A program made the translations under genes and the position numbers. DNA of 8,405 nucleotides from Candidatus Desantisbacteria bacterium CG1_02_38_46 (GTDB lineage Bacteria; Desantisbacteria; UBA1551; UBA1559). The DNA is taken from positions 1 to 8,405 of the forward strand of contig MNUO01000118.1 in the NCBI GenBank assembly GCA_001871015.1, in the 5' to 3' direction. Positions within the stretch are counted from its first letter, which is position 1, and each line of letters begins with the position of its first letter. Under the pieces are notes generated by a model, which saw only the letters and a program-made list of their open reading frames with translations, had not been told where the DNA came from and did not search any database. Shown piece by piece: positions 2,980-8,364 of the stretch.

Positions 2980-3300
2980 ATGAATAAAAACTTGTCTGAA
3001 TTGCAGAAGATTGTGAATCAGGTTAAAGATGGGTATGACCCGGAAAAAATTATTTTATTTGGTTCGTATGCCTGGGGAAAACCTACAGAATACTCTGATA
3101 TAGATTTATTAGTGATCAAGAATACCAGCGATAAATTTATTCGTCGATTAGAAAAGATTTCTTATGTAATTAAATCGAATTTAGGAACGGATATTATTGT
3201 TTATACCCCCTGCGAGATAAAAAGGATAATGAAAGACCCAAGCGATTTTTTTGTGCATAGAATTATTCAAAAAGGCAAAATAGTTTATGAAAAGAAATAA
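2980..3300 (+). CDS. MNT-type (minimal) nucleotidyltransferase, putative antitoxin of an MNT-HEPN pair
   Basis: This 106-residue single-domain protein has the DNA polymerase beta-like nucleotidyltransferase signature. GSYAWG (28-33) is followed by SDID (39-42), giving the two metal-binding aspartates D40 and D42, with the third acidic position probably D71 in the strand GTDIIVY. The domain is complete and of the usual length for minimal nucleotidyltransferases. In known MNT-HEPN modules this protein neutralises the HEPN ribonuclease partner, in characterised cases by attaching AMP groups to it; that role is inferred here from family and context. The start ATG at 2980 is supported by GAGGAG at 2969-2974. 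The gene lies 29 bases after res and overlaps the HEPN gene by 14 bases, implying coupled translation. Confidence 0.85.
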   Translation: MNKNLSELQKIVNQVKDGYDPEKIILFGSYAWGKPTEYSDIDLLVIKNTSDKFIRRLEKISYVIKSNLGTDIIVYTPCEIKRIMKDPSDFFVHRIIQKGKIVYEKK

Positions 3301-3679
3301 CTCAAAAAATTTTCTATCGTGGATACAAAAAGCTAATGAAGATTTTGCATTAGCTAAGGTAATTTTAAAAGAAAAAGGCTTCTATGCTCATATTTGTCTT
3401 TTGTGTCAACAGGCAGTTGAGAAATATCTCAAATCCTTTATTATAAAAAACAGAAAAGAGCCTCCATTGATTCACAATCTTAATACACTCGCAGAGATTT
3501 GCAAGGAGTATAACATTGATTTATCTTACTATGAGACAGAACTCAGGATATTGACTCAATATTATATTCCTGCCAAATATCCTATACCTTCTATAGTTAT
3601 TTTTACAAAAGAAGAAGCAAAAAAAGCAATAGAATTTGCCGGTAAGATTATCGAAAAAATTCAGGAAGAAATGGAGTGA
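3287..3679 (+). CDS. HEPN domain protein, putative toxin partner of the MNT protein
   Basis: This 130-residue, largely helical protein matches the HEPN family that pairs with MNT nucleotidyltransferases. The family-typical stretch QQAVEKYLKSFI (41-52) is followed by HNL (63-65) and a late helix with YYIPAKYP (92-99). In many relatives I recall, the last segment reads RYP, so the K97 position may be a conservative change. The only Rx4-6H spacing present is R56 to H63, earlier than in the classic HEPN ribonuclease site. Nuclease activity is therefore uncertain, and the protein may be a divergent or inactive member. It starts 14 bases inside the MNT gene, with AAAGG at 3271-3275 as a rather distant binding site. 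Its stop is 4 bases before coaD, and its final codons contain the coaD ribosome binding site. Confidence 0.8.
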   Translation: MKRNNSKNFLSWIQKANEDFALAKVILKEKGFYAHICLLCQQAVEKYLKSFIIKNRKEPPLIHNLNTLAEICKEYNIDLSYYETELRILTQYYIPAKYPIPSIVIFTKEEAKKAIEFAGKIIEKIQEEME

Positions 3680-5493: not shown

Positions 5494-6483
5494 ATGAAAT
5501 TTTTGAAAAAAACAAGTATAGATTTTATAGGTATGAAGAAATATGCATTTGGATTATCAGTAGTTCTTATTATTATCGGGGTTGTATCTATTATTGTTCG
5601 GGGAGGATTAAATCTCGGCATTGATTTTATTGGCGGAACATTAACACAGATGAAAATCCAACCAATGCCTGCAATTGAAGAAGTGCGAAAAACATTAATT
5701 GAAAATGGACTGAAGGATGCTCAAATTCAGCATTTTCCAAAGGAAAATGAAATCATAGTAAGGGTTAAAAAAGGTGAGGTCCAGCTTGTAGAAGAGATTC
5801 GTTTAGAAATCTTGCCTCAAGCATCAGGGGAGACATTAGTCCAGGCGGTTACGGCTCAGATTGCAACGCAAACACCAAGGATGGGAGGGGTTGAATCAAA
5901 GTTTTATGAAATGTTTTCTAAGAAATTTCCACAGACCAGAATTGAGGTTACGCGAGCTGAAATGGTTGGTCCAGCAGTTGGAAAGAAATTATTAAATCAG
6001 GCTATTAAAGCACTTTTTGCCGGTGTGATTTTAATAATGGTTTACATTGGCTGGCGTTTTGAATTTAAATATTCTGCTCCGGCGGTTCTTGCGCTCCTGC
6101 ATGATACATTTATTACAATAGGAATACTTACACTTTTAAATAAAGAAATTACAGTGACTATTGTTGCAGCTATTTTGACCCTGATAGGTTATTCTATAAA
6201 TGATACGATTGTTGTTTATGACCGCATCCGTGAAAAAAAGAGGCTGTTTGCTAAGGATGAATTGGCTAAAGTGATGAATATAGCAATAAATGAAACATTG
6301 AGCAGGACAATAATTACAAGTATTACCACAGGGCTCGTTTTGCTTTCAATCTTTTTTGCAGGAGGAGAAGTGCTTCATAATTTTGCCTTTACTTTATTAT
6401 TTGGGATAATAATTGGAACTTATTCATCAATATTTGTTGCCAGTCCTTTAGTCTATGAATTGGAGAAAGGTGTCAGGTCTTGA
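5494..6483 (+). CDS. secF: Protein translocase subunit SecF
   Basis: SecF is the membrane partner of SecD in the accessory complex of the Sec translocase. The 329-residue protein has a first membrane segment at about 17-35, then the family motif LGIDFIGGTL (41-50), an exported domain to about residue 165, and five further membrane segments. LIGYSINDTIVVYDRIRE (230-247) is the conserved SecF counterpart of the SecD RND motif. Length and order are normal. The ribosome binding site is weak (AAGAG about 8 bases before ATG), fitting translation coupled to secD. The extreme C-terminus is odd: the last codons (GVRS) and the stop at 6481-6483 fall inside a repeat word that recurs after recJ. The original SecF end may therefore have been replaced or trimmed by repeat insertion. 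Confidence 0.95.
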   Translation: MKFLKKTSIDFIGMKKYAFGLSVVLIIIGVVSIIVRGGLNLGIDFIGGTLTQMKIQPMPAIEEVRKTLIENGLKDAQIQHFPKENEIIVRVKKGEVQLVEEIRLEILPQASGETLVQAVTAQIATQTPRMGGVESKFYEMFSKKFPQTRIEVTRAEMVGPAVGKKLLNQAIKALFAGVILIMVYIGWRFEFKYSAPAVLALLHDTFITIGILTLLNKEITVTIVAAILTLIGYSINDTIVVYDRIREKKRLFAKDELAKVMNIAINETLSRTIITSITTGLVLLSIFFAGGEVLHNFAFTLLFGIIIGTYSSIFVASPLVYELEKGVRS

Positions 6484-6486
6484 CAA
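6468..6486 (+). repeat. Copy of the 19-base dispersed repeat at the secF/recJ junction
   Basis: AGGTGTCAGGTCTTGACAA occurs here and again, exactly, at 8179-8197 and 8237-8255. An inverted version is at 8329-8347, sharing 18 of these bases. The copy supplies the end and stop codon of secF, the likely ribosome binding region of recJ (CAGG at 6474-6477), and the first base of the recJ ATG at 6486. It is a stand-alone copy: the flanks do not continue the 58-base unit seen after recJ. Confidence 0.85.
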
Positions 6487-8201
6487 TGGAATGGGAAATG
6501 GCTGAATCTAATGTTGGGGTGGAAGAAAGTTTTGTAAAGGAATTAGACATTCCATTATTTATTGCAAAAATGCTCCTCAATCGAGGTATTTCCGACATAA
6601 AAGAAGCCGCTGATTTTATAAACCCTCAATTAGGTGCTCTCCATAATCCTTTTCTTATGAAAGGAATGAAGAGGGGGGTGGAAAGGATAGGAAGAGCACT
6701 TCATTATGGAGAATCAATATGTGTATTTGGTGATTATGATACAGACGGAATTTCCGCAACCGCACTTTTAGTTTTAACTTTACAGAGGTTAGGCGCCAGA
6801 GTCAAATCTTACATTCCGCATCGATTGAAAGAAGGCTATGGTTTAAAGAAAGAATCAATAAAGAAACTGAGCGACGAAGGAGTCAATCTTATTATAACAG
6901 TGGATTGTGGAATTACTTCCCTGGAGGAAATTGGATTTGCACATTCTCTTGGTCTGGGTGTGATTGTCACTGATCATCATCAACCTTTTGCAATACTTCC
7001 TTCTGCAGATGTCATAATTAATCCGATGCAGATTGACTGTCAATATCCTTTTAAGGAATTAGCTGGCGTGGGCGTTGTTTTTAAATTATGCCAGGCATTA
7101 GCCGGATTAAAAAATGAAGAATTATTGTGTCAGGAATCCCATCTGGATTTAGTAGCTCTGGGAACCATAGCAGATTTGGTACCTCTTAAGGGTGAAAACC
7201 GCATACTTGTTAAATACGGACTGAAAAGTTTTGCCTCTACTTCTAAAGTGGGGTTGAGGGCACTTGGTGAGGTGAGCGGGGTTGATTTAGGCAACATTAA
7301 TGTCACTCACATTGGATATAGATTTGCTCCCAGAATTAATGCAGGAGGGAGAATGGGAGATGCAAAAAAAGGATTTAATCTTCTTCTCTCTAAGGATTTC
7401 ACTGAGGCGAGAATTATAGCCTCAATGTTAGATGAGGACAACAAAACCAGGCAAAAGATTCAGAGGGAAGTTTTTGGGGAAGCGTCCAGCCTCGCAAGCG
7501 GTGTTGACCTGGGAACCGAAGGCATTATAATTCTTTCATCCCGGCAATGGCATCGGGGTGTGATTGGAATCGTTGCATCACGATTGTCTGAAAAATATAA
7601 TTGTCCAGCTATAATTATCTCTATAGAAGATGGAATGGGATACGCTTCATGCCGAAGTGTCAGGGGAACTGATATAATGAGTGTTCTTTCCGGTGGTGCA
7701 GACTTATTTTCCTCGTATGGCGGGCATGAATATGCTGCCGGATTTACAATTAAAGAAGAAAAGATAGATGAACTTAAGAAAAGAATTAAGCAGGCTATTT
7801 CAAAATTATCCCATACTAAATGTTCATATCCCGGACTTATTGTTGAATCTGAGCTGGATCCCGGCGAGGTTTCCAGAGAAGTATTCGAGAACTGGATGAA
7901 TGTATTTTCCCCATTTGGCAAGGAGAATCCCGTTCCGATTTTTCTCTCAAAGAATATGACTTTGATTGAATCACCCCTGATAGTGAAAAACAGGCATTTG
8001 CGACTAATACTTGAAGGGAAAAGAAGAGTTGTAGAGGCGATTGGATTTGGAATGGGTGGCCTCAAAGAAAAATTGGAAAAAGGCGATTGTATTGATATTA
8101 TCTTCAGCCCTCGTTTTAATAATGGCCGAGTAGGTCTTGACGACCGAGTAGGTCTTGACGACCGAGTAAATCTTGTGGAGGTGTCAGGTCTTGACAAATG
8201 A
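6486..8201 (+). CDS. recJ: Single-stranded-DNA-specific 5'-3' exonuclease RecJ
   Basis: RecJ degrades single-stranded DNA from 5' ends in recombination, mismatch and base-excision repair. The 571-residue product has an intact DHH phosphoesterase site: DYDTDG (83-88), the aspartate of VDCG (D140), and DHH (163-165). ALGTIADLVPL (about 225-235) and NAGGRMGDA (285-293) follow. The DHHA1 domain has HRGVIGIVASRL and GGH (412-414), and a C-terminal OB-fold-like region follows. I prefer ATG at 6486, giving MEWEMAES, because relatives start a few residues before a conserved Trp. TTG at 6480, overlapping the secF stop, would add two residues. The last 24 residues (548-571) are four in-frame hexads from an 18-base repeat: RVGLDD, RVGLDD, RVNLVE, VSGLDK. 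The stop also lies in repeat DNA, so this tail is unlikely to be ancestral. Confidence 0.95.
   Translation: MEWEMAESNVGVEESFVKELDIPLFIAKMLLNRGISDIKEAADFINPQLGALHNPFLMKGMKRGVERIGRALHYGESICVFGDYDTDGISATALLVLTLQRLGARVKSYIPHRLKEGYGLKKESIKKLSDEGVNLIITVDCGITSLEEIGFAHSLGLGVIVTDHHQPFAILPSADVIINPMQIDCQYPFKELAGVGVVFKLCQALAGLKNEELLCQESHLDLVALGTIADLVPLKGENRILVKYGLKSFASTSKVGLRALGEVSGVDLGNINVTHIGYRFAPRINAGGRMGDAKKGFNLLLSKDFTEARIIASMLDEDNKTRQKIQREVFGEASSLASGVDLGTEGIIILSSRQWHRGVIGIVASRLSEKYNCPAIIISIEDGMGYASCRSVRGTDIMSVLSGGADLFSSYGGHEYAAGFTIKEEKIDELKKRIKQAISKLSHTKCSYPGLIVESELDPGEVSREVFENWMNVFSPFGKENPVPIFLSKNMTLIESPLIVKNRHLRLILEGKRRVVEAIGFGMGGLKEKLEKGDCIDIIFSPRFNNGRVGLDDRVGLDDRVNLVEVSGLDK
8126..8197 (+). repeat. 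18-base tandem repeat, four units, inside the recJ 3' end
   Basis: Units lie at 8126-8143 and 8144-8161 (identical, CCGAGTAGGTCTTGACGA), 8162-8179 (degenerate) and 8180-8197 (GGTGTCAGGTCTTGACAA). They share the core GGTCTTGAC, spaced exactly 18 bases apart at 8133, 8151, 8169 (decayed) and 8187. The fourth unit is the dispersed 19-base word itself, so the tandem array runs in register into the following 58-base repeats. Because 18 is a multiple of three, the array stays in frame and adds hexapeptides to RecJ. Confidence 0.85.
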
Positions 8202-8289
8202 CAAATATCAGGACTAAAGTCCTGAGTTACATGTGGAGGTGTCAGGTCTTGACAAATGACAAATATCAGGACTAAAGTCCTGAGTTACA
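8174..8289 (+). repeat. Two perfect tandem copies of a 58-base repeat
   Basis: Positions 8174-8231 and 8232-8289 read identically. Each unit starts TGTGGAGGTGTCAGG, contains TCTTGACA and a doubled GACAAAT, then a TCAGGAC-TAAA-GTCCTGA hairpin, and ends GAGTTACA. The first copy overlaps the recJ stop at 8199-8201. Perfect identity implies recent duplication or continuing homogenisation. An assembly artefact is a possible but less likely alternative. Confidence 0.9.
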
Positions 8290-8322
8290 TGTCATGGTGT
8301 CATATCAGGACTAAAGTCCTGA
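8208..8322. repeat. Three copies of a short palindromic hairpin (TCAGGAC-TAAA-GTCCTGA)
   Basis: The same 18-base hairpin, 7-pair stem and TAAA loop, is at 8208-8225, 8266-8283 and 8305-8322. The third lies in a shortened repeat unit. None is followed by a T-run, so they are not intrinsic terminators. They resemble REP-type palindromes, and on transcripts could slow 3' exonucleases or separate recJ from clpP expression. Confidence 0.8.
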
Positions 8323-8328
8323 GTTACA
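8290..8328 (+). repeat. Third, internally deleted copy of the 58-base repeat
   Basis: This 39-base segment begins TGTCATGGTGTCA (close to the unit start TGTGGAGGTGTCA). It then jumps to TATCAGGACTAAAGTCC and the same ending GAGTTACA. Relative to a full unit, 19 bases are missing, the part containing GGTCTTGACAAATGACAA. Confidence 0.8.
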
Positions 8329-8347
8329 TGTCAAGACCTGACACCTC
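8329..8347 (-). repeat. Inverted copy of the dispersed repeat before clpP
   Basis: TGTCAAGACCTGACACCTC is the exact reverse complement of 19 bases at 8178-8196 and 8236-8254. The patch is therefore closed by an inverted terminal copy, and the right end can pair with either left copy to form a long 19-pair stem. This palindromic arrangement is what a REP/BIME-like or miniature mobile unit would show. Confidence 0.85.
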
Positions 8348-8364
8348 AAGAAAGGAGTGAAAAA

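Follow-up and report, generated by a model that had tools for sequence, protein, structure and literature searches.

Gene content of the window and anatomy of the RecJ tail

The window (the whole stretch of 8,405 nucleotides analysed here) comes from a bacterial genome of 1.73 Mb that is 88% complete, and carries the genes listed in Table 1; an Rfam scan of the window returned zero families. The big ResIII-type helicase ORF (344-2950) is similar to the Res subunit of a type III restriction system, and no methylase was seen alongside it in the window. The adjacent MNT-like nucleotidyltransferase and HEPN genes (2980-3679) are arranged like a HEPN-MNT toxin-antitoxin pair.

RecJ ends in the 27 residues NNG-RVGLDD-RVGLDD-RVNLVE-VSGLDK, followed by the stop codon. 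The original prediction of four in-register 18-bp units, each adding a hexad to the end of RecJ, described this tail accurately, the unit cores being spaced exactly 18 bp apart, and TRF reports an 18-mer at 8126-8168 (2.4 copies, 100%). Unit 3 is identical to units 1 and 2 at 13 of 18 positions and may be either native sequence, RVNLVE resembling the last OB strand, or a worn, diverged unit, while unit 4 agrees with units 1 and 2 mainly at (A)GGTCTTGAC. The 18-bp tandem in recJ is not a product of chance: self-repeats of at least 23 bp were found in only 2 of 68 flanks of the inverted-repeat elements described below, the recJ flank among them, and are rare in random 60-mers. Downstream, the stretch 8237-8352 folds with z = -9.1.

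In a same-order relative, RecJ is 57% identical and its C-terminal end, SPHIDKSGDLYMSLEDFEIPEAV followed by the stop, has no hexads, which agrees with the earlier proposal that repeat DNA was adopted here as coding sequence in frame-keeping 18-bp steps. That alignment had also been suggested as a way to locate the ancestral C-terminus; the absence of hexads in the relative is clear, but the two C-termini are too divergent for the boundaries of an insert, and hence the ancestral end, to be placed. RecJ profile scores are equal with 0, 1 or 2 units and do not tell the native last strand apart among the hexads. A search of genome contigs with the RecJ protein brought up no relative, and the RecJ array had zero matches among phages and plasmids.

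Table 1. Features of the window, with emphasis on the 3' end of recJ
Feature	Position	Strand	Remarks
Restriction helicase-like ORF, nucleotidyltransferase-HEPN pair, cytidylyltransferase-like gene, secD, secF, recJ	window	+	
Lone edge-repeat copy, secF-recJ junction	6469-6485	+	GVRS and stop of SecF (stop 6481-6483); recJ ATG 6486 adjoins
recJ ORF	6480-8201	+	Likely start ATG 6486; stop TGA 8199-8201
recJ domains DHH, DHHA1, RecJ_OB			Solved RecJ 8y30 aligned to residues 4-549
Unit 1, 18-bp mini-repeat CCGAGTAGGTCTTGACGA (RVGLDD)	8126-8143	+	Codon register 8127-8144; core at 8133
Unit 2, 18-bp mini-repeat (RVGLDD)	8144-8161	+	Same sequence as unit 1; codon register 8145-8162; core at 8151
Unit 3, CCGAGTAAATCTTGTGGA (RVNLVE)	8162-8179	+	CCGAGTA exact, remainder native RecJ or diverged unit; codon register 8163-8180; core at 8169
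Unit 4, outer edge of RAYT-type inverted-repeat element (VSGLDK)	8180-8196	+	Runs into RecJ stop; codon register 8181-8198; core at 8187
58-bp exact tandem duplication (8174-8231, 8232-8289)	8174-8289	+	Element's left half plus recJ TGTGGA
Interior palindrome CAGGACTAAAGTCCTG	8209-8224, 8267-8282, 8306-8321	+	
Element's right edge, inverted copy	8329-8345	-	Few bases 5' of the next gene's AAGGAG

An 18-bp mini-repeat inserted in frame in unrelated genes

The 18-bp sequence of units 1 and 2 is itself dispersed in the host genome, where it occurs at five loci with one to four units per site: C38 (recJ, two), C41 (one), C76 (two), C131 (one) and C3 (four). The pattern CCGAGTAGGTCTTGACGAC was likewise found at five loci, and its reversed control gave zero. 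Besides recJ, the unit lies in trpS, in a nuclease gene, in radC and in an intergenic array. In trpS, two units encode RVGLHDRVGLHD, an exact 12-residue insertion relative to every homologue aligned; these residues are missing from solved TrpS proteins and from 11 relatives, including the same-order genome, whose TrpS is 70% identical. The restriction-nuclease-like gene at C41 (MTES_1575/DUF559 nuclease domain) holds one unit, read as RVGLDD, an exact insertion of six residues that are missing from its four closest homologues (37-44% identical). In radC the unit is read on the opposite strand, giving SSRPTR in frame close to the N-terminus. The units of recJ and radC are thus in frame, yet neither gene offers a decisive empty homologue. 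Judged from the trpS and nuclease alignments, the 18-bp mini-repeat is an exact in-frame insertion in unrelated genes (12 and 6 residues, respectively), and units 1 and 2 of recJ would be insertions of the trpS kind.

It could be argued instead that RVGLDD-RVNLVE is the native end of RecJ, and that the 7-bp direct repeat CCGAGTA mediated a single local duplication of 18 bp, which produced the second RVGLDD, the copies elsewhere being derived from recJ or unrelated to it. The length of RecJ minus one unit does agree with that of relatives, at about 19-20 residues past the N motif, and an alignment of RVGLDD-RVNLVEV with LYMSLEDFEIPEAV is possible. However, the identical 18-mer forms clean insertions in unrelated genes, so that a native origin would require recJ to be the source of the whole family, and we therefore consider this explanation unlikely.

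A 17-bp form of the mini-repeat, CRAGTAGGTCTTRCGAC, is found at about ten further loci, in arrays that contain between one and eight units; its exact sequence was present in the host genome only, being absent from the other 385 of the 386 genomes searched. The two forms differ in where they lie. The 18-bp form is inside genes at four of its five loci, the fifth (C3) being in a doubtful N-terminal extension, whereas the 17-bp form is inside genes at none of its approximately ten loci and is exclusively intergenic. The coding-like strand of the 18-mer has a single open frame, which is the one read in recJ, trpS and C41. We infer that reading-frame selection sorts the copies: genes would tolerate the 18-bp form only, as it leaves the frame intact, while the 17-bp form would persist between them. 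The contrast between the two lengths offers a direct test of such selection. At L210 (1500-1571), four 18-bp units of a CGGG variant lie 5' of a gene start and could be a translated N-terminal extension (RQDLPG four times).

As for the mobility of the mini-repeat, the unit contains GTAG and the complementary halves of GGTC-TTGAC-GACC, and the 18-bp arrays fold no better than shuffled sequences, which leaves a hairpin-based, REP-like route unsupported. In the 88%-complete genome, neither of the RAYT genes at C60 and C109 is flanked by the mini-repeat. Lone 17-bp units at L221, L228, L234 and L248 (near 1500) occupy the loop of a larger hairpin whose arms are C6/G6 (CCCCCCTGCTTTCTTGC...GCAAGAAGGGGGG), and the mini-repeat may derive from this element. 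The 17-mer and 18-mer also matched viral contigs; these hits were set aside as chance, since they are single matches within ordinary phage ORFs, and 18-mer matches with two (C97:11078) and three mismatches (C6:2287) were not counted, both being in ordinary coding sequence.

The edge repeat is linked to Y1 transposases

The word forming unit 4 had been predicted to be dispersed, and this was confirmed well beyond the window: the host genome contains 60 exact and 10 one-mismatch copies of GGTGTCAGGTCTTGACA (hereafter the edge repeat), 35 per strand, with none for the reversed-pattern control. Most copies form inverted (+/-) pairs that span 43-203 bp and enclose one or more CAGGACTAAAGTCCTG palindromes, of which the genome has 159 copies at one mismatch or fewer. 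At one such locus (L067, 2080-2259) the interior of the element holds repeated copies of the last bases of the host gene (AGTTGTTCAAA), as if the flank had been copied in, and elements of this kind therefore seem to expand locally.

Among the matches listed, the 17-mer GGKGTCAGGTCTTGACA was found in Elusimicrobia, Planctomycetes, Betaproteobacteria, Deltaproteobacteria, Nitrospirae, Aminicenantes, Desantisbacteria and others, and a Y1 transposase ORF was nearby at 18 of 114 edge-repeat loci outside the host, mostly within about 100 bp. Several of these ORFs (L089, L105, L160, L179, L186 and L189) sit between an inverted pair of edge repeats. Three of the Y1 proteins match NCBIfam REP_Tyr_transpos with E-values of 1e-21 or better, two above the curated cut-off and one just below it. 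The same-order relative has 14 copies of the edge repeat, with a RAYT-like ORF beside two of them (including L323). No RAYT gene bounded by the exact edge repeat was found in the host's 88%-complete genome; the RAYT gene at C109 has related ends, GGGTCAGACCTCAACA. From its genomic contexts, then, the edge repeat is a RAYT/TIRYT-associated repeat, which in other genomes flanks Y1 (HUH) transposase genes as an inverted pair.

These observations bear on the original prediction that a single noncoding repeat invaded the end of recJ and slipped in 18-bp steps to give all four hexads. The four cores are indeed in exact 18-bp register and share TCTTG of GGTCTTGAC. However, the other half of the mini-repeat (CCGAGTA...CGA) is missing from the edge repeat, and it is present at trpS, C41, C131 and C3, all of them loci at which the units have no edge repeat beside them. 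Units 1 and 2 belong to another repeat, of which they are exact copies, and unit 4, rather than being a slipped copy, is the edge of a separate RAYT-linked element with inverted repeats and a palindromic interior, all of which makes slippage of one invader very improbable. Both families share AGGTCTTGAC, and it is because of this that they had been taken for one repeat.

The shared sequence could also mean that the families are linked: the 17-bp mini-repeat and the edge repeat would have come together at some site, such as recJ, and given rise there to a hybrid 18-bp form that then spread. TTGAC is common to the 18-bp form and the edge repeat, where the 17-bp form has TTGC or TTAC, and of all such matches in 68 flanks the common AGGTCTTGAC is the longest. 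Nevertheless, a 10-base match also occurs in a few of 1200 random flanks and no intermediate sequence was found, and we regard a hybrid origin as quite improbable.

The edge repeat caps genes

In the host genome, the 3' end of an ORF abuts 34 of 43 elements (stop position from 9 nt ahead of the element to 45 nt into it), against an expected 20% (binomial P ~1e-16) under a null that assumes random placement in noncoding DNA and in the last 24 nt of genes, uses simple gene calls and takes a sample of about 214 kb of the genome as background. Approximately 21 ORFs have a C-terminal tail and stop codon derived from the outer edge of the element, and according to the frame these tails read GVRS, VSGLDK/M/I or CQVLT..., each ending in a stop. 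All 10 tail-bearing proteins checked are supported by Pfam (e.g., PGK, histidinol dehydrogenase, acetate kinase and homoserine dehydrogenase). Since every forward frame of the edge reaches a stop within about 40 nt, insertions at gene ends cap the protein cleanly.

The window contains a second case of capping, in which SecF ends in GVRS whereas its counterpart in the relative ends in VYEWDKRYRKAR (KRYRKAR). The edge repeat at this junction (6468-6500) links the secF stop straight to the likely recJ ATG, leaving scant room for a ribosome-binding site. Outside the host, 44 of 100 elements sit at a stop, where 17% would be expected; the stop falls inside the element in 30 cases and follows GVRS in 18 of them. 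Some of these stops are those of the transposase genes themselves. None of the 14 edge-repeat copies of the same-order relative ends an ORF, and capping is therefore not obligatory.

Origin of the RecJ tail

We conclude, with a probability of roughly 0.78, that the RecJ tail results from two independent repeat insertions, one of the 18-bp mini-repeat and one of the RAYT-linked edge element. Two units of the lineage-specific mini-repeat would have inserted in frame close to where the OB domain ends, adding RVGLDDRVGLDD. Afterwards, a non-autonomous inverted-repeat element, which may be moved now or may have been moved formerly by a RAYT/TIRYT-type HUH transposase, would have entered recJ a few codons short of the native stop, its edge supplying VSGLDK and a new stop codon, and a later 58-bp tandem duplication would have copied the left half of the element together with TGTGGA of recJ. 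The order of the two insertions and the assignment of a moving enzyme to either repeat are inferred. The proposal that a noncoding repeat invaded recJ thus holds in so far as a dispersed repeat forms the gene end and its stop, but two families are involved and not one.

Repeat DNA has become protein by two routes in one bacterium, through 18-bp inserts within conserved genes and through capping by a transposase-linked palindrome, the latter giving some 20 genes (SecF, RecJ, PGK, histidinol dehydrogenase, acetate kinase and others) a common new C-terminus. This bears on gene annotation, on family profiles and on studies of how short repeats move. It is possible, although on the whole doubtful, that the lineage-specific 18-bp element is actively mobile and is spreading as frame-keeping RVGLDD hexads into core genes, in which case it would perhaps be the smallest in-frame coding mobile repeat described.

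Comparison with known repeat systems

Cyanobacteria have small dispersed repeats of about 24 bp, which are very small and apparently mobile. The mini-repeat resembles them by description alone, in its tiny size and apparent mobility. The Rickettsia palindromic elements (Ogata et al. 2000, 2002, reviewed in PMC10969869) are also in-frame repeat DNA in unrelated protein-coding genes, but they are palindromic and approximately 150 bp long (about 100-150), whereas the mini-repeat unit is 18 bp, tandem and without a significant fold.

The edge repeat has closer counterparts. Di Nocera et al. 2013 (PMC3733652) and Nunvar et al. 2010 (PMC2817692) describe TIR and REP repeats associated with TIRYTs and RAYTs that likewise flank Y1 transposases, form inverted pairs and lie 3' of genes, and they report that ORFs next to GTAG REPs often take their stop codon from the repeat. 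TIRYT elements have the common TIR motif GGGGWSAS (PMC3733652); GGGGTCAG, the GGGG variant of the edge repeat, fits this motif, and the GGTG form that dominates in the host is off by one base. Like REPINs (Bertels and Rainey 2011, PMC3116915), the edge element is an inverted doublet with a hairpin interior that is dispersed as a unit, but it differs from them in sequence and in having an interior of separate palindromes and tandem duplications.

An 18-bp frame-keeping repeat in several conserved genes of one lineage, together with capping on this scale, is a variant that we did not find described in the literature searched, the coverage of which was incomplete. REP-supplied stops, TIR-type RAYT repeats and in-frame coding palindromes are already known (PMC3733652, PMC10969869), and among in-frame repeats of the known kind the 18-bp unit, present in frame in several core genes, stands out as an unusually small variant.
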